DNA of 32,950 bases from an uncultured Alphaproteobacteria bacterium. Lineage in GTDB: Bacteria; Pseudomonadota; Alphaproteobacteria; Pelagibacterales; Pelagibacteraceae. Position 1 is the first letter of the stretch. Each line of letters begins with the position of its first letter. The notes under the pieces were generated by a model that did no database searches, was not told the DNA's origin, and saw only the letters and a list, made by a program, of their open reading frames with translations. Where the stretch lies: assembly GCA_903869725.1 (NCBI GenBank), contig CAIQAD010000029.1:1-32950 (forward strand), given 5' to 3'. A program made the translations under genes and the position numbers. Below are positions 2,986 to 21,327 of this stretch, one piece after another.

Positions 2986-2996
2986 ATAAAGAAATT

Positions 2997-3551
2997 TTAA
3001 TCAAAAGATAAATTTACACCTTTGCGAATATAAATATAACCAGTGTATAAAGTTAAGATTGCAGATATCCAAAGCAAAGTTAATCCAAGTTGAATACCAT
3101 AATTAAATAATAATTTATCTCCACTTTCTCCTGCTAATAAGATTGATATCGAAATCATTTGAATCACAGTTTTTATTTTAGATAATTTTGTCACCGGGAT
3201 AAAAACCTGAGCTTTTGCTAAAAATTCTCGTAATCCTGATATTAATATTTCTCTAGTCACAATAATAATTGCAGCTATGACAGAGATATCATTAATAATT
3301 TTATCCATAACCAGCAACATTAAAGCAGTAGCAACTAATACTTTGTCAGCTATGGGATCTAATAATTCTCCAAATTTAGATTGTTGTTTATATAATCTTG
3401 CAAAAAAACCATCCAAATAATCAGTAAAAGCTGCAATTGCAAATAATCCGCAAGCTAAGAAATCATATAATTCACCGGGTATAAAAAAAATAATAATTAA
3501 AATAGGAGCTACGAGAATTCTTCCAATAGTTAAAATATTAGGAATTTTCAT
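2997..3551 (-). CDS. pgsA: CDP-diacylglycerol--glycerol-3-phosphate 3-phosphatidyltransferase
   Basis: Integral membrane enzyme of 184 residues making phosphatidylglycerol-phosphate, the committed step to phosphatidylglycerol and cardiolipin. The CDP-alcohol phosphotransferase signature is complete: Asp44, Asp47-Gly48, Ala51-Arg52, Gly61, Asp65 and Asp69, with canonical spacing. Several hydrophobic segments fit the six-helix family fold. Its ATG overlaps the end of uvrC by 14 bp, and uvrC-pgsA adjacency is common in alphaproteobacteria. It is the last gene of the uvrB-SDR-folB-uvrC-pgsA transcript. No terminator is visible in the 11 bp before the convergent ilvE. Confidence 0.93.
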   Translation of the reverse strand: MKIPNILTIGRILVAPILIIIFFIPGELYDFLACGLFAIAAFTDYLDGFFARLYKQQSKFGELLDPIADKVLVATALMLLVMDKIINDISVIAAIIIVTREILISGLREFLAKAQVFIPVTKLSKIKTVIQMISISILLAGESGDKLLFNYGIQLGLTLLWISAILTLYTGYIYIRKGVNLSFD

Positions 3552-5397
3552 TTTTTAAACTATGTTTATTTTGATTAAAGAAATTGTAGATTTTAATAGC
3601 AGTATTATCATTAATACCATCAATTTTTTTAATATCCTGAAGACTAGCATTTTCAATCATTTTTATAGATCCAAAGTGATTAAGAAGTAACTTTTTTCTT
3701 TTTTTTCCAATTCCTTCAACATCGTCAAGAGCAGATTTAGTAAATGATAATTTTCTATTTTTTCTGTGAGAAAAAATAGCAAATCTATGAACTTCATCAC
3801 GAAGTCTTTGTAAAAAAAATAATAATACATTATTTTTAATTTTTATTTTTTCATTATTTAAATAGAAATTTTCATTTCCTTGATTTCTTTTTTCTCCCTT
3901 AGCTATTGCAATAATAGTTAAATTAAATAATCCTAAATTATTTAAAATTTTTCTTGCTGTGTTGTAATGGCCTTTTCCTCCATCAATAACAATTAAGTCA
4001 GGATTATTTTCTTCATTTTCCAGTTTAATTTTAGAAAATCTTCTTAACAAAACTTCCTCAAGCATTTTATAATCATCTGGTAAATAATCTATATTTTTAT
4101 TTATATTAAATTTTCTATATCTTTTTTTAATAAAACCATTTTTATTAAAAGCAATTAAAGCTCCAACAGCGTTTTTTCCTTGCATATGACTATTGTCATA
4201 AACTTCAATAAGATTTGGATTAAAACCTAATTTGAATTCTTTATTTATGAGAGAAAGAAAATGTGAATTATTATCATTCTCTAGTAATTTTTTTTCTAAA
4301 GCTAATTTAGCATTTTGAATTGCCATTTTAATAATAGAATTTTCTTCATGATTTTTTGGGATTTTTATATTAATTTTTTTCTTATATTTTTTTTCAAGAG
4401 CTGATTCAATTAGAGAAATATCTTTAATTTTTTTATTAATAATTATTTCTTCTGGAGGAATTTTATTTTCATAAAATTGTATTAAGAATGAATAAATAAT
4501 ATCTTCAATCAAATCTTCAGGATGATGCTTAGGAAAAAAGGCTTGATTACCCCAATTTTGTTTTGATCGGTAAAAAAATACTTCAATACAAGTCGCATTA
4601 TTTTTTTTGAATGCGACAATTAAATCTGCATTATTAAAATTATTTTTATTAATTTGCTGTAATGATTGAATTTGACTTAATGCCTTTATCCTATCCCTAA
4701 TACCTGCTGCTTTTTCGTAATTTAAATTTTCACTTTCTTTTTCCATTTCTTTAGAAAGTTTTTTTTGAATATCTATTGATTTTCCATTTAGAAAATTTTC
4801 ACTATCTGTGACTAATTTGTTATAGTTGATCTGGTTAATCTCACCTGTGCAAGGCGCAGAACATCTTTTAATTTGGTATAAAATACATGGTCTTTTTCTG
4901 TTTTTGAATACTATATCGTCACATACTCTTAATAAGAAAACTTTTTGCAATGTTTTAATAGTCCAGTTAGCAGATCCAATAGATGCAAACGGTCCAAAAA
5001 AAATGTCTCTATCGTTTTGTTTACCGCGAAACTTAGTGAGTTGCGGAAAATTATTAGATTTTGTTATTTGAATATAAGGAAAAGATTTGTCATCCTTTAA
5101 AAGAATGTTGTATTGAGGCTGATTTTTTTTTATTAAATTAGCTTCGAGTAATAATGCTTCAGCTTCATTCTGAGTTGCTATGTATTCTATGTTATTAATT
5201 GAAGAAATCATTCTTTCTGTTCTAATTGGAAGAAAAGAATTCACAGAATAACTTTTAAGACGATCAATAAGATTTTTAGCTTTACCAACATAGATTACGA
5301 CATTATTTTTATTGAGCATTTTATAAATGCCAGGCCCTTTCGGAACAAACTGAATAATATTTTTAATTAATTTTTTTCCTTGATCAAGGTCATTCAT
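3538..5397 (-). CDS. uvrC: UvrABC excinuclease subunit C
   Basis: A 619-residue nuclease making both incisions in nucleotide excision repair. Domains in order: GIY-YIG nuclease (GIY at 23-25, YVG at 36-38, Arg46); a cysteine-containing segment; a UVR motif around residues 205-240 (LNYEKAAGIRDRIKAL) that contacts UvrB; an RNase H-like nuclease with VYDNSHMQG, VIDGGKGH and RDEVHRFAIFSHR; and C-terminal helix-hairpin-helix repeats (VEGIGKKRKK, IDGINDNTA). All catalytic blocks look intact and length is normal. It overlaps folB by 8 nt upstream and pgsA by 14 bp downstream. Being in one operon with uvrB lets both repair subunits be made from one message. Confidence 0.96.
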   Translation of the reverse strand: MNDLDQGKKLIKNIIQFVPKGPGIYKMLNKNNVVIYVGKAKNLIDRLKSYSVNSFLPIRTERMISSINNIEYIATQNEAEALLLEANLIKKNQPQYNILLKDDKSFPYIQITKSNNFPQLTKFRGKQNDRDIFFGPFASIGSANWTIKTLQKVFLLRVCDDIVFKNRKRPCILYQIKRCSAPCTGEINQINYNKLVTDSENFLNGKSIDIQKKLSKEMEKESENLNYEKAAGIRDRIKALSQIQSLQQINKNNFNNADLIVAFKKNNATCIEVFFYRSKQNWGNQAFFPKHHPEDLIEDIIYSFLIQFYENKIPPEEIIINKKIKDISLIESALEKKYKKKINIKIPKNHEENSIIKMAIQNAKLALEKKLLENDNNSHFLSLINKEFKLGFNPNLIEVYDNSHMQGKNAVGALIAFNKNGFIKKRYRKFNINKNIDYLPDDYKMLEEVLLRRFSKIKLENEENNPDLIVIDGGKGHYNTARKILNNLGLFNLTIIAIAKGEKRNQGNENFYLNNEKIKIKNNVLLFFLQRLRDEVHRFAIFSHRKNRKLSFTKSALDDVEGIGKKRKKLLLNHFGSIKMIENASLQDIKKIDGINDNTAIKIYNFFNQNKHSLKNENS

Positions 5398-17056: not shown

Positions 17057-17515
17057 ATGAATTTATTAGATAAAATTAATTCTGCATTAAAAGAATCAGC
17101 TTTAAAACAGGAAAAAGATAAAGTTTTGACTCTTCGCATGGTAATTGCGGCTATCAAAGATAAAGAAATAGAAAAAAGATCTACAAATGAAAAAAATATC
17201 AAAGATGCAGATGTTATTGCTGTTCTAAATAAAATGTTAAAGCAAAGAAGAGAATCGTTAGAAATTTACAACAAAGCTTCAAGAGTCGATTTATCCGAGA
17301 AAGAGCAAAGTGAAATAAATTTTATACAATATTTTTTGCCAAAACAATTAAATGAATCTGAAACAAGAAAAGTCTGTGAAGAAAGTGTTAAAGATTCAGG
17401 CGCGAGCTCAATAAAAGACATGGGAAAAGTTATGAGCATTTTAAAAATAAAATATGCAACGAATTTAGATTTTGCAAAAGCTGGTGCTATTTTAAAAGAA
17501 ATATTATCTAAATGA
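17057..17515 (+). CDS. GatB/YqeY domain protein
   Basis: A 152-residue all-helical YqeY-family protein with the family features LRMVIAAIKDKEIEKR near the N terminus, a lysine/arginine-rich middle (LNKMLKQRRESLEIY), YFLPKQLNE, and the C-terminal block with DMGKVMSILK. The domain resembles the tRNA-contacting tail of the GatB amidotransferase subunit, but free-standing YqeY has no proven reaction. It overlaps dnaG by 4 nt (ATGA), and the order yqeY-dnaG-rpoD is common in alphaproteobacteria, so it probably belongs to the macromolecular-synthesis operon. Confidence 0.88.
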   Translation: MNLLDKINSALKESALKQEKDKVLTLRMVIAAIKDKEIEKRSTNEKNIKDADVIAVLNKMLKQRRESLEIYNKASRVDLSEKEQSEINFIQYFLPKQLNESETRKVCEESVKDSGASSIKDMGKVMSILKIKYATNLDFAKAGAILKEILSK

Positions 17516-19272
17516 AATATCCAAAAGAGTATTTAGAAGAAATTAAACAAAGAGTTAAAGTTTCTGACGTTGTTGGAAGTTCTGTAAAATTAAAAAGAAG
17601 AGGGAGAGAGTTTGTTGGGTTATCTCCATTTACAAACGAAAAAACACCGTCTTTTACAATAAATGATGAAAAGGGATTTTATCACTGTTTTAGTACTGGA
17701 GAGCATGGAAACATTTTTGATTTTTTAGTTAAAATAGAAAAATTAAATTTTGGTGATGCAGTTCGTAAATTAGCATCAAAAGCTGGCATGCAAGAGTTTA
17801 AATTTACTAAAGAGAATATAGAAATTGAAAATAAACGACAAAAATACGATCAAATTCTATCAATAGCTTTACAAGAATACCAAAAAAATTTTTTAACGAA
17901 CAACATAGTAAAAAAATACGCAATTGATCGTGGATTAACAAAAGAAATTTTATTAGAATTTAAAATAGGTTATTCGCTTGAACAGGGTTTAGATATTTCT
18001 TTGTTCAAAAATTTTTCAGAAAAGGAGTTATTAGATTCCGGCATTTTTTTTCAGGATGAAAAAAATAAGAGATTAATTGACAGATTTAGAAATAGATTAA
18101 TTTTTCCAATTTTTGATAGCAACAACAAAATAATTGGATTTGGAGGTAGAGCCTTATCAAAAAATTATTTAGCAAAATATATTAATTCCCCGGAAACTGA
18201 ATTCTTTAAAAAAGGTTTTAATTTATTCAATCTTAATCACGCAAAGTTAAATAATAAGCAAAATAAATTTGCGCTTATTGTTGAGGGGTATGTAGATGCA
18301 ATCATGCTTTATCAGTCCGGTTTTAAAAATGCCGTTGCAACTCTCGGTACAGCAATGACGGAATATCATCTTAATTTAATTTGGAGATATTTTAATGATG
18401 CTGTTATTTGTTTCGATGGCGATAAAAGTGGTCAAAATGCTGCAGAAAAAATATCTGAAAAATTAATAGGTTATATGAAGCCAAATTATTCTTTATCATT
18501 TGTGATATTGCCCAATGGTTATGATCCAGATTCTTTTATTAGAAAAAATGGCAAAGAAAATTTTGATAACTTGTTAGGTCAAAAAACGGATATAGGTACT
18601 TTTATTTTTGATAATAATTTTCAAAATTTGAAATCTCATCAGCCAGAGGAATTGGCTGGTTTTGAAAAAAGATTGATTGAATTGTGTTCAACAATTCAAG
18701 ATCCAATAGTAAAAAAATATTATTTAAGTTTTTTTAAAAATAAAATTTATGAGCAATTTTATCAAAGAAAGAAAAAAGATTTTAAGGCTTTAAATAAAAC
18801 AAAAGAATTAGCGAGAAAAATTAATCGATATTCTTCTTTTGAAATTAAAGAATTTTCTTTAATTTATTTATTTCTTCATAATCTTAAAAATTTAAAAGAA
18901 AGAATTAACGAACTTATTAAAATCTCATTTCACAATTCTAAAATTGAAAATTTAAAAAAGGCATTAATAGAAATTGTCAATAGTCGAGAAAATTTTGTTG
19001 ATTTTAATTTAATTCAAAAGTTAGAAGAAAATGGATTTCTTACAATATTGAATGAAATTAATAATTTTTCAGGAGTTAAAGGTATTTCCGAAAATTTAAA
19101 AATTGAAAAATTTGATTTTTTTTTAAACGACTTAAAAGATGAAATTAGTAATCTCGAAATGCAAAATAAGCTTAATGCAGCAGAAGAATCATTTTCGAAA
19201 AATATGAGCGAAACTCAATTTAACGAATTTTTATCACTAAAAAATCAAATTATAGCTGCAAAAAAGATCTAG
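17512..19272 (+). CDS. dnaG: DNA primase with degenerate zinc-binding motif
   Basis: A 586-residue primase making RNA primers at the replication fork; E. coli DnaG is 581. The N-terminal CHC2 domain is recognisable (GREFVGLSPFTNEKTPSF, then GFYHCFSTGEHGN), but the four zinc ligands Cys, His, Cys, Cys appear as Ser38, Thr41, Cys59, Thr62, so only one remains. The catalytic TOPRIM domain is intact: Glu258 in VEGYVDA, and Asp302 and Asp304 in FDGDKSG. The helicase-binding C-terminal third is very rich in lysine and asparagine. It starts at the ATGA overlap with the yqeY-like gene; 55 bp separate it from rpoD. Confidence 0.95.
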   Translation: MKYPKEYLEEIKQRVKVSDVVGSSVKLKRRGREFVGLSPFTNEKTPSFTINDEKGFYHCFSTGEHGNIFDFLVKIEKLNFGDAVRKLASKAGMQEFKFTKENIEIENKRQKYDQILSIALQEYQKNFLTNNIVKKYAIDRGLTKEILLEFKIGYSLEQGLDISLFKNFSEKELLDSGIFFQDEKNKRLIDRFRNRLIFPIFDSNNKIIGFGGRALSKNYLAKYINSPETEFFKKGFNLFNLNHAKLNNKQNKFALIVEGYVDAIMLYQSGFKNAVATLGTAMTEYHLNLIWRYFNDAVICFDGDKSGQNAAEKISEKLIGYMKPNYSLSFVILPNGYDPDSFIRKNGKENFDNLLGQKTDIGTFIFDNNFQNLKSHQPEELAGFEKRLIELCSTIQDPIVKKYYLSFFKNKIYEQFYQRKKKDFKALNKTKELARKINRYSSFEIKEFSLIYLFLHNLKNLKERINELIKISFHNSKIENLKKALIEIVNSRENFVDFNLIQKLEENGFLTILNEINNFSGVKGISENLKIEKFDFFLNDLKDEISNLEMQNKLNAAEESFSKNMSETQFNEFLSLKNQIIAAKKI

Positions 19273-21250: not shown

Positions 21251-21327
21251 GGGCCTGTAGCTCAGTTGGTTAGAGCCCCCCGCTCATAACGGGGTTGTCC
21301 GGGGTTCAAATCCCTGCGGGCCCACCA
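21251..21327 (+). tRNA. tRNA with CAU anticodon, probably tRNA-Ile2
   Basis: A full 77-nt cloverleaf with encoded CCA. The acceptor is GGGCCTG/CGGGCCC with discriminator A. The D stem is GCTC/GAGC. The anticodon stem CCCCG/CGGGG encloses CTCATAA (anticodon 21285-21287), and the T arm CGGGG/CCCTG encloses TTCAAAT. CAU can read Met, or Ile (AUA) after lysidine modification by TilS. The C4-G69 and C5-G68 pairs match TilS recognition features known for tRNA-Ile2 and differ from elongator tRNA-Met. A CAU tRNA beside rpoD also occurs, as I recall, in other alphaproteobacteria. It is not an initiator: the first pair G-C is intact. Amino acid identity is inference. Confidence 0.9.

Follow-up and report, generated by a model that had tools for sequence, protein, structure and literature searches.

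How does a DnaG primase hold its N-terminal ribbon together, and read its template, when three of the four residues that should bind zinc have been replaced? The question is raised by the dnaG gene of an uncultured alphaproteobacterium of the Pelagibacteraceae (GenBank assembly GCA_903869725.1, contig CAIQAD010000029.1). The stretch of DNA analysed here, called the window, is 32,950 nucleotides long and constitutes one whole contig of this genome, which measures 1.08 Mb in 55 contigs and is 96.8% complete. We propose, with a probability of roughly two in three, that the gene codes for a functional DnaG, the sole one of its genome, bearing an established zinc-free form of the ribbon with a metal-free polar cluster, and that such ribbons are exchangeable by recombination.

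The dnaG gene of the window and its ligand site

The gene product matches the full-length NCBIfam model TIGR01391 with 400.8 bits (cut-off 283.6), and the Pfam Zn_ribbon_DnaG profile (PF01807) matches its N-terminus with 106 bits (cut-off 24.9; Table 1). The TOPRIM motifs are intact: VEGYVD at residue 257, FDGD at 301 and YDPD at 337 correspond to E. coli positions 264, 308 and 344, where we take the catalytic acids to be E265, D309, D311, D345 and D347. On the core tree the protein groups with a DnaG of the Pelagibacteraceae (SH-aLRT 97). The gene is flanked on one side by rpoD and on the other by an open reading frame at 17057-17515, which lacks an NCBIfam match and is presumably YqeY-like; E. 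coli dnaG (NC_000913.3) sits between rpsU and rpoD. A tRNA-Met (CAT) gene is found at 21251-21327 of the window, between rpoD and the gene for formate--tetrahydrofolate ligase.

Direct reading of the codons and alignment with E. coli DnaG place Ser38, Thr41, Cys59 and Thr62 of the window protein on C40, H43, C61 and C64; the Cys-His-Cys-Cys ligand set of the CHC2 ribbon is incomplete. The first-pass annotation of this DNA had reported the absence of three of the four ligands amid retained flanks (PFxNEKTPSF and FYHCF) and TOPRIM acids; both observations are borne out, save that it placed the start of the site at 17622, one base ahead of the Ser38 codon. It had also named two circumstances that would undo the observation. 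A sequence error at the ligand codons is rejected because all 31 genomes of the order in which the domain was read are zinc-free, and a second, full-length zinc-binding DnaG is rejected by the single PF01807 match, that is a single CHC2 domain, in this 96.8% complete genome.

Table 1. Features of the dnaG gene in the window (positions of the whole stretch)
Feature	Position	Strand	Basis or remark
dnaG, DNA primase, 586 aa	17512..19272	+	TIGR01391, PF01807; sole DnaG found in the genome
N-terminal ribbon (CHC2 / zinc-binding domain), aa 4-94, zinc-free form	17521..17793	+	PF01807, AlphaFold2 model, 1d0q match
Ser38 replacing zinc ligand Cys (E. coli C40)	17623..17625	+	codon reading, alignment
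Thr41 replacing zinc ligand His (E. coli H43)	17632..17634	+	codon reading, alignment
His58, aligned with the C. difficile trinucleotide-preference residue	17683..17685	+	alignment to A. aeolicus 2au3 (Lys there)
Cys59, single ligand kept (E. coli C61)	17686..17688	+	codon reading, alignment
Ser61-Thr62 replacing Gly and the fourth ligand Cys (E. coli C64)	17692..17697	+	Thr62 codon 17695-17697
DNAG_N part of the catalytic core, aa 127-245	17890..18246	+	Pfam PF08275
TOPRIM domain, aa 256-343, with E258, D302/D304, D338/D340	18277..18540	+	Pfam PF13155, motif positions

Fold and constraint

The window ribbon resembles the zinc-binding domains of known DnaG structures (1d0q, 2au3) in fold, in position, in the sequence around the site and in its linkage to a DNAG_N and TOPRIM core, and differs from them in the replacement of three of the four ligands and of the glycine of the knuckle by Ser61. 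An AlphaFold2 model built from the window ribbon and 40 relatives has a mean pLDDT of 89.2 and superposes on the Bacillus stearothermophilus zinc domain 1d0q with an rmsd of 0.9 A over 92 columns (TM 0.85/0.87); the ribbon of Mucilaginibacter, a zinc-free member of a different phylum, is modelled equally well (pLDDT 89.7; 0.9 A over 92 columns against 1d0q). As AlphaFold2 is blind to metal, these models speak for the fold and not for its stability without zinc, and on this basis the earlier suggestion that the domain probably folds without zinc appears likely. Across 30 rows of the order the mean identity to the window is 72% for the ribbon and 42% and 45% for the two parts of the core, which argues that the ribbon is not decaying.

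Phyletic distribution of the zinc-free ribbon

In the Pelagibacterales, the marine SAR11 order, 118 of 137 genomes searched had a match to the domain, and the 31 that were read, mostly the best-scoring, comprise 27 with the ligand positions SKCT, two with SKCS, the window genome with STCT and its genus mate with SSCS. An even draw from the class (289 genomes, 277 with a match) yielded readings for 183 genomes from 154 coded families: 146 of the genomes are CHCC and 37 zinc-free, while by family 134 are uniformly CHCC, 19 uniformly zinc-free and one (f29) holds both. An enlarged tally of 165 families (141 CHCC, 23 zinc-free and one mixed) is not an even sample, its 11 extra families having come from the order search and from genomes picked partly for matching or missing the zinc-free DNA pattern. 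That pattern was present in 36 of the 349 genomes of a scan of the phylum, all of them within the class of the window; it is blind to Ser38 written AGY and matched 48 of 216 loci, as against 64 counted as zinc-free.

A scan of named genomes with the zinc-free pattern returned at least 119 stretches, 118 of them with a recognisable ribbon. Among the matches listed, 97 of the 118 belong to the Alphaproteobacteria (37 Hyphomicrobiales, 35 Pelagibacterales, 11 Caulobacterales and 14 others); the others listed are 2 Nevskiales, 10 Bacteroidota (two of them short non-DnaG proteins), 3 Chlorobiota, 1 Verrucomicrobiota, 4 that are less well placed, and 1 Fidelibacterota bin whose DnaG falls among those of the Alphaproteobacteria in the tree. 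The DnaG of a contig binned as Candidatus Marinimicrobia (L229 / L394) groups inside the Alphaproteobacteria, and the contig is perhaps mis-binned. Named carriers include Bradyrhizobium, Caulobacter, Methylobacterium, Mucilaginibacter, Myroides and Chlorobium, which are taxa of soil, plants, freshwater, clinical samples or sulfidic waters, as well as Nevskiales and the marine Henriciella and PS1 clade. In the phylum of Mucilaginibacter the domain occurs in 127 of 128 genomes, and of the 90 read 58 are CHCC and 32 zinc-free, a ratio that is not a frequency, the 90 being the 30 best-scoring and 60 more that include nearly all of the lowest-scoring. The complete DnaG encoded by Caulobacter phage Sansa (KT001913.1) is zinc-free and clusters on the core tree with its Caulobacter counterpart; the phage is a possible carrier for dnaG exchange. 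The other phage DnaG that was read is CHCC.

The zinc-free state is thus neither confined to the ocean nor to one clade. The first-pass annotation had suggested a clade trait, and this description fits the order as far as it was read (31 of 31); the notion of a single clade fails, as the state is scattered on the core tree and recurs outside the Proteobacteria.

Two further kinds of protein came to light in the Bacteroidota. A MAG of Pricia antarctica (L397) has, beside a DnaG of normal length, a second long CHC2 protein with a frame of 1162 aa, whose ribbon is zinc-free and reads SACT. Four short zinc-free CHC2-like proteins (L398, L399, L400 and L402) resemble the window ribbon in Ser38 and share Asp59 with some zinc-free DnaG proteins; they differ in having Arg41 and Gly61, in their frames of 74 to 346 aa and in not being chromosomal dnaG. 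Perhaps, as a guess, they are primases of mobile elements.

An all-or-none state with a shared signature

When 428 distinct ribbons, part of which came from a pattern demanding Ser38, are sorted by the number of ligands kept, 217 have four, none has two or three, 142 have one and 69 have none. Intermediates are also absent from the distinct ribbons of the Alphaproteobacteria (221) and Bacteroidota (89), most of which were not chosen by pattern. These counts leave out 13 fragments or non-DnaG loci and the loci with less than 250 aa of core, and 460 rows were kept. One apparent CHCA intermediate among the loci left out (L213 / L215; G087:C19, about 2989-4218) comes from an alphaproteobacterial dnaG, otherwise CHCC, in which some 310 residues are inserted after His58, ahead of Cys59-Phe-Gly-Cys. 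The insert ends in Asn before Cys in an intein-like manner, and our guess is that it is an intein.

The 211 distinct zinc-free domains share a signature. Ser38 is found in all of them, though part of this set was found with the Ser38-demanding pattern; position 61 is Ser or Ala in 211 of 211, compared with Gly in 215 of the 217 zinc ribbons, and position 62 is Ser or Thr in 210. Position 41 is variable (K, T, N, S, Q, V, A or G, with His in 2). Position 59 is Cys in 140 and Asp in 71, and for the latter reason Cys59 is rejected as a residual site for metal. Within the Alphaproteobacteria (158 zinc rows against 67 zinc-free rows, about 30 of them SAR11), the consensus at columns more than 80% conserved in either set differs only at 17, 38, 41, 61 and 62, and in the Bacteroidota it changes at columns 9, 35, 36, 38, 41, 55, 61 and 62. 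Hence, in both groups the metal site and the glycine knuckle change, while the greater part of the conserved surface is kept.

We posit that the polar cluster formed by Ser38, Cys or Asp59, Ser or Ala61 and Ser or Thr62 stands in for the Cys, Cys, Gly and Cys that hold zinc, with position 41, the His of the zinc form, left free to vary. Such a ribbon would bind no metal, and hydrogen bonds between side-chains along with packing might replace it, so that the domain would keep its shape and its template-reading surface.

Template recognition

In the C. difficile primase a Lys beside the zinc ribbon affects trinucleotide preference (PMC5204125); in the alignment of the same source only C. difficile, C. 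perfringens and A. aeolicus have this Lys, and G. stearothermophilus has His. By our own alignment to A. aeolicus 2au3, Lys70 of C. difficile would correspond to position 58 of the window protein; His65, also considered for this role, is ruled out by the A. aeolicus alignment. Among the Alphaproteobacteria position 58 is His in 72 of 76 zinc-free rows and 131 of 160 zinc rows, and among the Bacteroidota it is Lys in 32 of 32 zinc-free rows and 39 of 57 zinc rows. In each group, then, the zinc-free enzymes have the residue that also prevails in the zinc form, His in the Alphaproteobacteria and Lys in the Bacteroidota. We predict from these sequences that template choice and priming by zinc-free DnaG proteins would be normal. 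How recognition works, a point already raised in the first-pass annotation, stands as a question that can now be put to the test.

Conflicting histories of the ribbon and the core

The trees were built from subsets of our own choosing (116, 83, 51 and 43 rows), with ribbon alignments of 88 columns. When the ribbon is left out and the tree is built from the core (116 rows), the zinc state needs at least 25 changes, against a mean of 38.7 for shuffled labels, and the strongly supported branches by themselves force 10. The ribbon tree (83 rows, ligand columns masked) parts the Alphaproteobacteria, E. coli and Nevskia (39 rows) from a Bacteroidota/Chlorobium side (44 rows) with support of 100/98; both zinc states lie on each side of this split, with at least 8 changes, and a zinc-free ribbon group within the Alphaproteobacteria is poorly supported (81/13). 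The trees give no direction; the occurrence of CHCC in E. coli, 1d0q and 2au3 suggests that it is ancestral. If it is, we infer that the zinc ligands were lost at least twice, once on the alphaproteobacterial side and once on that of the Bacteroidota and Chlorobiota.

A distinctive zinc ribbon, type B, conflicts with the core in the same manner. Its 12 rows were picked by ribbon sequence and are not exhaustive. Among 51 alphaproteobacterial rows with the ligands masked, 1 change suffices for it on the tree of the ribbon (94/85), against 12 on the core, and the core rejects it as one clade (dlnL 86, p 0.0027); so it does with 43 rows (p 0.0002), after removal of eight that include the window and of which four were flagged long. 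With these 43 rows the core also rejects a single clade of zinc-free rows (p 5e-13), which the ribbon does not (p 0.115). The quick core tree of 51 rows is itself weak: 4 of its 48 inner branches are starred, forcing 2 changes each for type B and for the zinc-free state, and 97 of 500 shuffles cluster the zinc-free label on it at least as tightly. The ribbon and core data each reject the best tree of the other, a weak comparison, both trees having been optimised on their own data.

For pairs with TOPRIM identity of 75-80%, the ribbons, with ligands masked, are 80% identical when the state is the same and 58% when it differs (609 and 15 pairs); at TOPRIM identity of 90% or more the figures are 93% and 60% (245 and 3 pairs). 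Below 65% ribbons of same and different state differ little, and the pairs are not independent. The best state-changing mosaic among these sequences is formed by the zinc-free primase of Mucilaginibacter and a zinc-binding one (L455), which are 53-63% identical over residues 1-210 and 90-97% over residues 211-330, a contrast that is partly expected because TOPRIM is generally more conserved than residues 1-210; for comparison, a flavobacterial primase (L475) gives 40-77% over residues 1-210 and 63-77% over TOPRIM. A record of Nitrobacter vulgaris (NvAb1_2, L242) has a ribbon 91% identical to that of Bradyrhizobium sp. LMTR 3 and a TOPRIM domain 50% identical, where two Bradyrhizobium/Afipia pairs have TOPRIM identities of 90 and 93%. 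This mosaic is a single record with no change of zinc state, and it is graded, with an intermediate block of 62-64% at residues 100-245, which rules out a clean break at residue 90. The Nitrobacter record has the YqeY-like neighbour of dnaG, which occurs in none of the Bradyrhizobium/Afipia loci searched; the genes around it that lent themselves to comparison were too few to place the contig, whose Nitrobacter label is tentative. A clean breakpoint at the edge of the ribbon was not found in any state-changing pair.

From the conflict between the domain and core trees we infer that the ribbon was probably exchanged between primases by recombination. The ribbon would in that case be an exchangeable 5' segment of dnaG, with zinc and zinc-free forms moving between primases, and we propose that intermediates are not seen because recombination swaps whole ribbons. 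Its fuller version, in which two interchangeable forms produce mosaic dnaG genes by swapping of the 5' segment, perhaps via phages, and recombination thereby switches metal dependence, we hold tentatively, at somewhat less than even odds. Neutral exchange between two solutions of equal worth would fit as well.

A competing explanation is convergence within single lineages, point by point and without recombination, in a burst of coupled substitutions each time. Distant phyla with the same signature on ribbons that are otherwise typical of their lineage, the Bacteroidota-like character of the ribbons of both Mucilaginibacter and L455, and the single base change needed for Cys to become Ser all agree with such a course. 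Against it stand the lack of any intermediate in 428 domains and the persistence of the ribbon/core conflict with the ligands masked, also for type B, where no ligand change is involved; we consider it rather unlikely.

Alternative explanations for the loss of the ligands

One alternative is thiol hardening, whereby the loss of zinc-bound cysteines would shield DnaG from nitric oxide, oxidants or thiophilic metals, and zinc-free ribbons would be favoured wherever such stresses prevail. Bradyrhizobium and a Nitrobacter record are among the zinc-free taxa, and both genera live with nitrogen oxides; the habitats of the zinc-free taxa are otherwise very diverse. In Salmonella the zinc proteins that become S-nitrosylated include DnaG, and nitric oxide mobilises zinc (PMC6094482). 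The zinc cysteines of ClpX and DnaJ are nevertheless retained in the window genome, and Cys59 is still present in 140 of the 211 zinc-free domains, so this benefit seems improbable.

The first-pass annotation had raised a possible link with low zinc demand in the open ocean, and this saving of zinc finds little backing and is highly improbable. The uniform state of the 31 SAR11 genomes read would suit it, as would the very low zinc of the pelagic surface ocean noted in PMC4771312. Many named carriers outside SAR11 are, as listed above, of soil, plant, freshwater or clinical origin; furthermore, the C4 site of ClpX and the four CXXCXGXG motifs of DnaJ, the two other zinc sites checked, are intact in the window genome. 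PMC4771312 also reports that metal uptake is reduced in SAR11 except for high-affinity zinc uptake, with znuA in 50% of the SAR11 genomes surveyed, a retention that may alternatively be read as a need for zinc.

Binding of a metal through other ligands, for instance His58, Cys59 and His65, would agree with the 97% conservation of both histidines in the zinc-free domains of the Alphaproteobacteria. Yet these are also the commonest residues in the zinc-binding domains of the class (His58 82%, His65 70%), and all 32 zinc-free Bacteroidota rows combine Lys58 with Gly or Ala65, 16 of them also carrying Asp59, which makes this option extremely improbable.

The closest precedent for a ribbon without three of its four cysteines is the N-terminal domain of metazoan mitochondrial TWINKLE, a helicase that has lost primase activity, as PMC7231222 describes, and human Twinkle is also the next structural match to the window ribbon after two primases, a weak one (E 0.11). 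That the window ribbon is likewise degenerate, with primase function reduced or lost, nonetheless appears very unlikely: no DnaG besides this one was found in the genome (96.8% complete), its catalytic acids are intact, and across the order identity is higher in the ribbon than in the core. The putative zinc-binding domain of bacterial GluRS, whose zinc motif is missing from many species (PMC4381286), belongs to a different enzyme with a different function. Searches of the open-access papers in PubMed Central yielded no description of a zinc-free DnaG.

Conclusions

In Caulobacter, Bradyrhizobium and other tractable organisms, naturally occurring primases without zinc uncouple the metal from recognition, so that the part played by each can be tested directly. 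They also bear on the design of drugs against the ribbon domain and on the recombination of essential replication genes. If our proposal of ribbon exchange is true, it would be recombination, and not stepwise mutation, that decides whether an enzyme essential for replication depends on metal.
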